A DNA stretch of 64,000 nt from positions 20,629 to 84,628 of the forward strand of contig JAUWCL010000007.1 of NCBI GenBank assembly GCA_030609325.1, read 5' to 3'. A program made the translations under genes and the position numbers. The number at the start of each line of letters is the position of its first letter. Positions within the stretch are counted from its first letter, which is position 1. The notes beneath the pieces were generated by a model. The model did no database searches, was not told the origin of the DNA, and saw nothing but the letters and a program-made list of their open reading frames with translations. This DNA is from Candidatus Krumholzibacteriota bacterium. Lineage in GTDB: Bacteria; Krumholzibacteriota; Krumholzibacteriia; Krumholzibacteriales; Krumholzibacteriaceae. Shown piece after piece: positions 58,579 through 61,921 of the stretch.

Positions 58579-58616
58579 TAAAAAGGGATCGGCGTGATTC
58601 GCTGACCCCTTTTTAC
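58579..58616 (+). terminator. Probable terminator downstream of tRNA-Arg
   Basis: AAAAAGGG ATCGGCG...CGCTGA CCCCTTTTT imperfect hairpin ending in T-run. Confidence 0.65.
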
Positions 58617-58980
58617 TTTTCTGTCGAGTTATGCCATATCGCGTGCCGATATATCCTGTATTATCCATAATATTCCACCATAACGGAATGCTCGCATGGT
58701 TGCCCCTGGATACACATGGTATATTGCATGACTAATTGCATATATCCATCCACCATCCGGCAATATTCTAACCGGTCCTGTATACACTCGCAGGAGAGGT
58801 ACATCGCTGGATGTCTTTCGCTATAAAGGCTATCCCATGCATTTACAAAAGGTTAGAAAGTCCAAAGCTTCCCCGTAATTTCTCAGGATATCTTTTCGCG
58901 TAAAGGCACGCCGTATGCAATTCCATCATCAGCCGGATTTGCCGGCATAAATACTTCGCCGGGAGATTGAGAAATTTGCC

Positions 58981-59043
58981 ATGGAGGTGATCACGGTGCT
59001 GCCGATACTACTGATAATTGATCTGTTCTGGTGGCTTCGATGA
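58981..59043 (+). CDS. Candidate small hydrophobic peptide (15 aa from GTG 58996: MLPILLIIDLFWWLR; 20 aa from ATG 58981)
   Basis: GGAGGTGATC, a 10-nt match to the canonical anti-SD complement, 8 nt upstream of GTG 58996; TGA stop at 59041. Confidence 0.35.
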   Translation: MEVITVLPILLIIDLFWWLR

Positions 59044-59071
59044 AAACTCTGTCTCGCTCCTGAAAGGTATA

Positions 59072-59109
59072 AATGTTCCCGTCGATAGGGGTGTATCGGC
59101 GGGAACGTT
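59072..59109. other. 16-bp hairpin (two G-T wobbles) in AT-rich intergenic gap
   Basis: AATGTTCCCGTCGATA-GGGGTG-TATCGGCGGGAACGTT. Confidence 0.8.
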
Positions 59110-59232
59110 TAGTTTATCCCCCAAAAAGCATTTTGTCATTAAAATATCACAATATAACCTTAATTATAAAGTAATGGCTGTATTAATATGCATTTATTGC
59201 AGTTATAAAATGATAATAATTTGATATTTTTC

Positions 59233-59260
59233 TTGACAGACTGTTTTGGGTCCTTATAAT
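59233..59260 (+). promoter_or_regulatory. Consensus sigma70 promoter with AT-rich upstream tract
   Basis: TTGACA (59233-59238), 16-nt spacer, TATAAT (59255-59260); very AT-rich 59131-59232 resembles an UP element. Confidence 0.85.
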
Positions 59261-59265
59261 CAAAA

Positions 59266-59437
59266 GGAAATTGGGGCAGGCCGGACTGCGCGATCGTGAT
59301 TCATCGGCTCCCAAGCCAATCCTATCAAGCGAAGCGATCTTGCTGCTAAGGCCTCTGTAGAGTTGAAAAGACACGTAACGCAATGTAGTCCGACTGGTCC
59401 CAAATAAAATGGAGAGTGGTTTCCCACTCTCCATTTT
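59266..59437 (+). ncRNA. Candidate structured non-coding RNA (family not recognised)
   Basis: Starts just after a consensus promoter; 59271-59287 pairs with 59387-59403 (15 of 17 positions, mismatches symmetric); internal hairpins; ends in a strong terminator; no ORF. Confidence 0.65.
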
Positions 59438-59440
59438 ATA
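59405..59440. terminator. Bidirectional palindromic terminator between ncRNA candidate and convergent PP2C gene
   Basis: ATAAAATGGAGAGTGG-TTTC-CCACTCTCCATTTTAT, perfect 16-bp stem. Confidence 0.9.
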
Positions 59441-59458: not shown

Positions 59459-61921
59459 CTACATGACCCTGAGGATCACCGCTGTCATATCGTCCATGAC
59501 GCTCCCGTCTCCGAAAGCAATCACGTCCCGGAAGAGCTTTTTCATGAGTTCTTCCATCTCCAGTGACCTGTTGGCCTTCAGGAACGCTATGAGCCTCTCC
59601 TCGCCGAAGTACTCGCCGGAACTGTTCTCCTGGTCTATGAATCCGTCCGTATACGATACGAGCAGATCGCCGCTCCTGAGCTTGAGTACGCCGTTGCTGA
59701 ATTTCGAGTCCGGATCAACGCCGACGAGAATACCTCCGCACTGAAGCTTCGTGATGACGCCGTCCGCGCGAAGGATGATGGGAGGGAAGGCACCGCCGTT
59801 GCAGTACTTCAATATTCTCGTCTCGTTGTCGTATACAGCGTAGAAAACCGTGGCGAATCTGCTCAGGTCGCTTCTATCGAAGAGCAGACGGTTGAGCGAG
59901 GTCAATACCTCGGCCGGTGATTTTCCCGCCGTCGCTTCCGCCCTGAATCCCGCCTGAAGCGTTGTCATAAGGAGAGAGGCAGGTATCCCTTTTCCGGACA
60001 CATCGGCCACGGCCAGGCCCGTGATCCCCGGAGCGAGATCGAGGTAGTCGTAGAAATCACCCCCAACCTCCCTGCTGGTCCTCATATCTCCGAGTATCTC
60101 GGCGTTTTTCATGATAGGAGGAGCGGTGGGGAGGAGACGCTGCTGTATCTTACTTGCCAGATGGACCTCCTCCTCGAGTTTTTCCTTCTCTTTCGAATCC
60201 CTGTAGAGAAGTTTGTTTCGGACGGCTGCGGCGCTTCTATCTCCGAGCAGCTCGAGTATCTCTGCATCGATCCTGCCGTAAGGTTTCCCTGAAAGTTTCC
60301 TGCCGAGGACGGCGAATCCCAGGAGTTCGCTCTGTTCCACGAGGGGAACTATAACCGAAGCTTCCGACAGGGACAGGAATTCTCTCGATGTCCTGTCGAG
60401 GTTGCTGTTTATCCAGATGCGGTCGTAGTATTCAACAATCAGGGGGAGTTTTTTCTCGCGGGCCAGATTGATCAGCCCCGTATCCCGGGGGAGAGAGGTA
60501 AGGGGAATTCCAGATCCATCGGGACTGCTGCCCGCCATGGCGAAGTTCCTGCCCCCGTCACCCAGAAAGAGAAAGACGTATTTGGCATCGAACAGATCCC
60601 TCAGAGTACAGGTAACGAATCCAGTCATCTGCTCCAGCGTTCCGTGCGACTGAATGCTCCTCGAGAACTCAATTACCTTTTCCCTGAAGATCTTCCTGTT
60701 GGTGTTGAAGATCCTGTCTATCATACCCAGCAGGCTCGATCGCGCCGGAATGAAGATCGCGATGACCAGCACGACGCTGAGGAATGCCAGGAAATAATAC
60801 CGGGCATAAAGGAATCCGGAATAGCTCTCCCCCATGATTCCTCCGAAGATGAACAGGGCGGCGGCCAGAACGGCCGACACCAGCACGAAGAACAGCCCGG
60901 CCCTGAAGACGAAGCTCAAGTCGAATGCTTCATGCCTCAGTATCGCGTAGGCGAATGAAGCCGAGATGAATGAGAGAAAGAGCACCGCGATGTGCTCGTG
61001 GGGGATCTGTACTCCCGGAAGAAAGAATCGGATCACCATTATCAGCAGCAGGGGAAGGATCCCGATCGTCAGCCCGATCGCTGCTATCCTGAACTTGACC
61101 TTCTGGATCAGGTCGGAAGTGAGGTATGTCCTGACGAAGAAAAAGACGCTGGCCAGCATGTACAGCAGCCAGTAGATCGACATCACGCCGTTGAGCGTGA
61201 GGACGATACCGCGTTCGATCCCGGATGAATATCTGAGCATGGCCACGACGAACAGTGCGAGGAAGATCAGGGTAGGGGGGATATACAGGGTCTTCCTTAT
61301 GAGATACCTCCTCGAGCCGGACCTGATCTCCTTTCCGGGAAAGATCAGGAAGAAGTGGAGGAAGAAGGCGGGGAAAAACGCCATCAGAAAATCGTAGACG
61401 AGCTCACCGGCAAGATGGAAGAAAGGCACAGTGGTAACCGGGCGGTCCGTCAGCAGAAACGCTATCGCCAGGTAGTTTGCTGTGAAAAGATAGCCCAGCT
61501 GGTCCGGTCTTCTGAGAATCACGACGAGCCCGAGGAATATGAAGGTGAAGGCCGTCAGGCTGTACGCGATACGTCTGTATATCCTCACGGCCGGCTGCGG
61601 AATACTCTGAACTGTCACTTCCAGGACCGAATATCCCCGGGCCACGGTATAGACCTGCGGCTCGCCATGCGGGGACAATCTGGTGAGAGAGCGGAAATGG
61701 TTGATGTTCCTTACATCGACGCCGTCGACCGCCACGATCTCGTCGCCCCGCTCCAGCGGTAGTGCCCTGTTGGGGCTTTCCTTCTCGAACTCGAAGAATA
61801 CGAGGTTGTTATGGCGTATTCCGGTGTAGGGAGCATTCGGCAGCCTCGATATCCCCGCGATGTCGAGAACGGTGATCAGAATAGCACCGGCGATCAGCCC
61901 CAGTCTGATGAACCTGATCAC
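59459..61921 (-). CDS. Membrane-bound PP2C/SpoIIE-type (RsbU-like) phosphatase with PDZ-like and GAF-like regions
   Basis: N-term NRALPLERGDEIVAVDGVDVRNINHFRSLT (PDZ-like), several TM helices, GAF-like segment, then LASKIQQRLLPTAPP...EVGGDFYDYLDLAPGITGLAVADVSGKGIPASLLMTTLQAGFRA. Confidence 0.85.
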   Translation of the reverse strand: MIRFIRLGLIAGAILITVLDIAGISRLPNAPYTGIRHNNLVFFEFEKESPNRALPLERGDEIVAVDGVDVRNINHFRSLTRLSPHGEPQVYTVARGYSVLEVTVQSIPQPAVRIYRRIAYSLTAFTFIFLGLVVILRRPDQLGYLFTANYLAIAFLLTDRPVTTVPFFHLAGELVYDFLMAFFPAFFLHFFLIFPGKEIRSGSRRYLIRKTLYIPPTLIFLALFVVAMLRYSSGIERGIVLTLNGVMSIYWLLYMLASVFFFVRTYLTSDLIQKVKFRIAAIGLTIGILPLLLIMVIRFFLPGVQIPHEHIAVLFLSFISASFAYAILRHEAFDLSFVFRAGLFFVLVSAVLAAALFIFGGIMGESYSGFLYARYYFLAFLSVVLVIAIFIPARSSLLGMIDRIFNTNRKIFREKVIEFSRSIQSHGTLEQMTGFVTCTLRDLFDAKYVFLFLGDGGRNFAMAGSSPDGSGIPLTSLPRDTGLINLAREKKLPLIVEYYDRIWINSNLDRTSREFLSLSEASVIVPLVEQSELLGFAVLGRKLSGKPYGRIDAEILELLGDRSAAAVRNKLLYRDSKEKEKLEEEVHLASKIQQRLLPTAPPIMKNAEILGDMRTSREVGGDFYDYLDLAPGITGLAVADVSGKGIPASLLMTTLQAGFRAEATAGKSPAEVLTSLNRLLFDRSDLSRFATVFYAVYDNETRILKYCNGGAFPPIILRADGVITKLQCGGILVGVDPDSKFSNGVLKLRSGDLLVSYTDGFIDQENSSGEYFGEERLIAFLKANRSLEMEELMKKLFRDVIAFGDGSVMDDMTAVILRVM

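Follow-up and report, generated by a model that had tools for sequence, protein, structure and literature searches.

A conserved structured RNA with a consensus sigma-70-type promoter, linked to a micropeptide gene in Krumholzibacteriia

Organization of the Locus

Within the window (the whole 64,000-nt stretch of DNA that was analyzed), a structured RNA is encoded between an unannotated micro-ORF and the gene for a membrane phosphatase, together with the following features.

58905–58918, + strand: sigma-54-type −24/−12 site, GGCACGCCGTATGC, upstream of the micro-ORF
58996–59043, + strand: micro-ORF VLPILLIIDLFWWLR*, 15 codons, unannotated, with a strong Shine-Dalgarno sequence (GGAGGTG)
59070–59111, + strand: terminator-like hairpin with the loop GGGGUG, 3′ of the micro-ORF (z = −5.7)
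59220–59232, + strand: AT-rich, UP-element-like tract abutting the −35 element
59233–59260, + strand: sigma-70-type promoter of the RNA, TTGACA-16-TATAAT, a 12/12 match to the consensus
59267–59405, + strand: structured non-coding RNA of about 135–140 nt, defined by covariance model matches and covariation
59404–59439, + strand: 16-bp terminator-type hairpin (arms 59404–59419/59424–59439), seen in the sequence
59459–61921, − strand: membrane phosphatase with PDZ-like, GAF, and SpoIIE (PP2C) domains, from Pfam

The promoter, composed of TTGACA at 59233–59238, a 16-nt spacer, and TATAAT at 59255–59260, is exactly as given in a preliminary description of this DNA, and when both strands of the 64-kb window are scanned it is the single site that matches at least 11 of 12 consensus positions at a spacing of 16–18. 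The AT-rich upstream tract reported there is likewise present, as a T-rich stretch before the −35 element that recurs in most relatives of GTDB family f1 (ATTTTTTTC-TTGACA); in several f7, f8, and f4 copies the tract is not T-rich. TTGACA is invariant in all 24 homologues and a near-consensus −10 is found in nearly all of them, across four families, with a spacer of 16–17 in f1, 18 in f7 and f8, and 17 in two of the three f4 copies, the remaining one (L123) having a poor −10. Judged from these elements, the RNA would start ∼7 nt past the −10, and the promoter points to high expression and an abundant transcript. No ORF of at least 60 amino acids is present on the + strand of the segment, and the proposal of an unannotated, strongly promoted non-coding RNA without an ORF holds up well, the segment having also proved to be conserved and to have no Rfam counterpart.

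At the 3′ end, the perfect pairing of the 16-bp hairpin was described correctly, but the stem leads into ATTCC and not into a clean T run, and the hairpin is not among the terminator-scan calls for the window. Unrelated hairpins or T runs occupy the terminator position in relatives, with T runs in most of them. In several families the T run comes directly after the closing helix of the RNA, which probably also acts as the terminator, and in the window copy the closing helix is followed by a separate hairpin.

Distribution and Conservation

In a marker-protein comparison, the nearest neighbors of the genome that holds the window are Candidatus Krumholzibacteriota/Krumholzibacteriia records. Of 58 related genomes, BLAST located the segment in 15, every one a member of family f1. 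A covariance model built from 15 f1 sequences (R1) reached five genomes in f7 and f8, and a second model made from the R1 set plus these five (R2) added one f7 genome and three f4 genomes, to give homologues in 24 of the 80 genomes of the class Krumholzibacteriia, in four GTDB families and as a single copy in each genome. The promoter is kept along with the segment in nearly all of these copies. No match was obtained in the 34 model-negative genomes of the class, where distant copies may escape detection, nor did the model search find an RNA downstream of the phosphatase gene in f2, f5, and f6. One f1 genome (G009) is likely model-negative because its contig ends soon past the micro-ORF, at an assembly edge. 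In a phosphatase tree, the deep branches of which are long and uncertain, f2 falls beside f1 and within the RNA-bearing group, which suggests that the RNA was probably lost in f2. Because the RNA occurs in only a section of a single class and is absent from the nested f2, the earlier term "housekeeping-level" non-coding RNA is too broad in its first part, although the second stands.

Searches beyond the class covered 22 genomes reached via the loci, some of which are known f1 genomes, and gave nothing new, and no RNA homologue was found in two Eisenbacteria-labelled groups (7 and 47 genomes) or in phages, plasmids, and viral contigs. Among the homologues, the conserved middle of the segment carries one- and two-base indels that shift every frame; there is thus no shared reading frame, and the RNA is not coding.

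Secondary Structure

Covariation favors a long irregular rod with a highly conserved apical domain as its cap, built from the following elements.

59271–59292, + strand: 5′ arm of the closing helix P1, partner 59379–59403, with compensatory changes
59379–59403, + strand: 3′ arm of P1, with an AAU bulge at 59382–59384
59295–59301, + strand: 5′ arm of P2, CGUG(A)UU, partner 59370–59375, with CGTG/CACG nearly invariant
59305–59310, + strand: 5′ arm of P3, partner 59360–59365
59313–59359, + strand: apical domain of ∼45 nt, near-invariant over four families, core AGCGRAGCGR..UUGCYGC..GGCCUC
59315–59317/59350–59352, + strand: proposed P4, paired in nearly all copies, one-sided variation only
59334–59336/59344–59346, + strand: proposed P5, paired in nearly all copies, one-sided variation only

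That the ends of the segment fold together had been proposed from the window alone, and the pairs of P1 are indeed present (59271–59277/59397–59403, 59282–59289/59385–59392, and 59290–59292/59379–59381), with compensatory changes among relatives in 7 of 8 outer and 5 of 6 inner pairs. The stem is continued, again as predicted, by CGTG/CACG (59295–59298/59372–59375) in P2, where the two pairs past the bulged A show weak covariation, and then by P3, which is 97% paired and has compensatory changes in 4 of 5 counted pairs. Support from covariation is therefore greatest in P1 and P3, with P2 nearly invariant. Further in, the preliminary description had placed three hairpins in a multibranched core. 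These can be drawn on paper, but they contain zero compensatory pairs and their covariation score lies below that of shuffles, whereas the continuous rod through P3 covaries, and in the rod version of this inner region four pairs covary and 98.3% of cells are paired.

In the alignment of all 24 sequences, which was fitted to model R2 and is so biased toward the structure of that model, 90.5% of cells are paired (slid controls, 33–49%), 20 of 34 pairs have double-sided changes, and there are 66 double-change cells against 23.8 ± 4.7 in shuffles. The unfitted alignment of 15 f1 sequences gives 88.7% paired cells, with 27 double-change cells compared with 12.6 ± 3.2 in shuffles. Folding energy is only moderate evidence, since the 180-nt segment that includes the terminator hairpin has a z of −6.2 (0 of 200 shuffles as stable) but the RNA alone has a z of −2.3 and its relatives range from −0.6 to −4.0; it is the comparative evidence that carries the case. 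We are highly confident that this is a real, functional, and new RNA family.

The apical domain reads AAGCY...AGCGRAGCGR..UUGCYGC..RGGCCUCUGA in its longer consensus form. Because this sequence is so highly conserved its fold is ambiguous: RNAalifold gives another apical pairing, and both this and P4/P5 fit the data. In alignment columns, the apical alternatives are 56–57:93–94 (GC/GC) with 75–77:85–87 (GCG/YGC), and 56–57:70–71 with 83–85:92–94.

Relationship to Known RNA Classes

None of the 4227 families of Rfam 15 matches the RNA at gathering or relaxed thresholds in the window and its relatives, and at gathering score the window gives only tRNAs. Relaxed thresholds produced sub-threshold matches to eukaryotic families that fall on the terminator hairpin or arise by chance, none of them found in the relatives. 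This agrees with the earlier impression that the RNA is not 6S, SRP, or RNase P RNA. A second SRP RNA (RF00169) and a second RNase P RNA (RF00010) were each considered and gave no model match; both RNAs are encoded elsewhere in the genome (75.7 and 307.5 bits, respectively). Bacterial SRP RNA resembles the new RNA in being a rod with a conserved apical domain that presumably binds protein, but the sequence and loop signatures of the two differ. We also rejected a cis-regulatory RNA or riboswitch. No same-strand gene lies downstream, and as the next gene is convergent (the phosphatase in the window, tRNA-Arg in f1 and f4), the RNA does not act in cis on a downstream gene.

Orphan structured RNA motifs from comparative genomics, such as those of PMC2864571 and PMC11109978, were likewise found by conservation, covariation, and intergenic position, often have no known function, and come from another phylum, and the new RNA differs from them in resembling no Rfam model and in its fixed linkage to a micro-ORF. 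The literature searched contained no description of small or non-coding RNA from Krumholzibacteria, and the present work adds to the phylum a well supported RNA family with a promoter, a consensus structure, and a covariance model.

The Linked Micro-ORF and the Neighboring Phosphatase

In all 24 RNA loci, a micro-ORF lies 221–404 nt upstream of the RNA on the same strand. It has 15–20 codons across loci and encodes a hydrophobic, membrane-like peptide that ends in ...DLFWWLR, with tails such as IDLFWWLR, LDLLWWLRR, LDLFWWLKD, and similar variants among relatives, and on the strength of this tail the micropeptide looks like a class-wide family. The motif GGCAY-N6-TGC, the −24/−12 pattern of sigma-54 promoters, precedes the micro-ORF in 26 of 38 loci, compared with 0.96 expected from shuffles. 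In the hairpin at 59070–59111 the stem varies while most copies in f1 and f2 retain the loop, which is unusual for a plain terminator.

Among relatives, the RNA is found ∼320–650 nt downstream of the phosphatase gene on the same strand in 16 of 18 cases, with the micro-ORF between the two, and the f1 and f4 copies of the RNA face a convergent tRNA-Arg(CCT). Comparison with other f1 genomes indicates that in the window a block from ∼58580 to 59440, which holds the micro-ORF and the RNA, is inverted with respect to the flanking tRNA-Arg and phosphatase, and it is for this reason that the RNA here converges with the phosphatase gene. The linkage of RNA and micro-ORF persists through this inversion, and it persists also where the phosphatase is not adjacent (loci L132 and L135; genomes G042 and G003). 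The micropeptide tail is kept near a SpoIIE/RsbU-type phosphatase in f1, f2, and f4–f8, and in the f2, f5, and f6 genomes the micro-ORF lies near the phosphatase without a detectable RNA. As the RNA always occurs with a micro-ORF of the sigma-54 type, the two probably belong to the same regulatory circuit, although the retention of the micro-ORF in f2, f5, and f6 means that the linkage may be plain synteny. Such a fixed linkage to a micropeptide, usually together with a signaling phosphatase, offers a concrete functional lead of a kind that most orphan RNA motifs are without.

The PDZ-like match of the phosphatase (PF17820) is located near the N terminus and scores under the curated cut-off. 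PDZ domains bind C-terminal peptides; the conserved part of the micropeptide is its C terminus, and the phosphatase bears this PDZ-like match.

Possible Modes of Action

Our leading reading, in which we place middling confidence, is that of a new family of stand-alone, constitutive, structured regulatory RNA of ∼130–145 nt that probably binds protein, and on the narrower point that protein binding is its main mode we regard the balance as about even. RNA polymerase would initiate at the near-consensus sigma-70 promoter, the ends of the transcript would zip together as the long closing helix, and the irregular rod would present the hyperconserved apical domain. A protein may then recognize this domain and be sequestered or scaffolded by the abundant RNA, which could in this way serve the regulatory circuit of the micro-ORF near the SpoIIE/RsbU-type phosphatase. 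With its 5′ end tied up in the closing helix, and with a conserved apex that is folded and keeps its pairing where bases change, the RNA fits recognition by protein better than a linear seed.

Base pairing and 6S-like action are both possible but less supported than protein binding. We give rather low credence to the first of these, a trans-acting sRNA with an apical seed that pairs with mRNAs, perhaps with a chaperone at a 3′ U tract. The strongly conserved AGCGAAGCG might just as well act as a seed for base pairing, AGCGRAGCG and UUGC are invariant in predicted loops, and the RNA has a strong promoter of its own. A U-tract terminator, a trait of base-pairing sRNAs, is approached by the T run near the end of most relatives, with none that is clean in the window. 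However, where the apical domain differs between families the bases change and local pairing is kept (GCG..UGC to GCG..CGC), and complementarity to the adjacent micro-ORF transcript is no better than for non-cognate pairs, the cognate and non-cognate duplex energies being equal in a comparison that ignores accessibility, with no recurrent complementary site.

It is decidedly unlikely that the RNA binds RNA polymerase or a sigma factor in the manner of 6S or Ms1 RNA with a distinct sequence. Ms1, known from mycobacteria and relatives, resembles the new RNA in being structured, stand-alone, and separate from 6S. Both 6S and Ms1 are known kinds of RNAP-binding RNA (PMC11077062), and 6S shares with the new RNA its stand-alone character, strong sigma-70 promoter, rod-like shape, and ends joined in a long helix. 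The new RNA differs from Ms1 in its host lineage and gives no Rfam match. The 6S model (RF00013) itself gives no match at E ≤ 10 in the segment or at E ≤ 1 in relatives, and the large open central bubble of 6S is absent, the consensus of 24 sequences having only small internal loops of a few nucleotides per side between P1, P2, and P3, and the conserved apical domain in place of the bubble. Canonical 6S RNA is moreover encoded at a separate locus in the source genome (G000:C55:32365–32550, 71.9 bits), and 6S is Rfam-detectable in 14 of 16 Krumholzibacteriia genomes tested. The two f4 genomes tested (G026 and G030) carry the new RNA without an Rfam-detectable 6S, a coincidence that would sit well with a 6S-like role.

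Short hydrophobic peptides are common among type I toxins, and with a hydrophobic peptide gene upstream of every RNA copy we considered whether the RNA is an antitoxin or direct regulator of the micropeptide in a type I toxin-antitoxin-like pair. We think this very improbable: the RNA is on the strand of the micro-ORF and does not overlap it, the duplex comparison above gives the cognate pairs no advantage and no recurrent site, the peptide is kept in three families without a detectable RNA, and a tail as conserved as DLFWWLR would suit a specific partner better than a pore. A conserved DNA element, transcript leader, or 3′ end fragment without a functional free RNA is barely credible, for although this intergenic stretch holds several conserved elements, the conserved promoter keeps a constant distance to the start of the helix, compensatory changes occur throughout, terminators lie behind the RNA, and no downstream gene is found on its strand.

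A more specific proposal, which we consider unlikely as it stands, joins the RNA with the sigma-54-type micropeptide in one conserved two-transcript cassette that would control the adjacent PDZ/GAF/SpoIIE membrane phosphatase. We know of no earlier description of such an RNA and micropeptide partner-switching circuit. Were the proposal true, a constitutive RNA and an inducible peptide of 15–20 amino acids would together feed a partner-switching signaling system.
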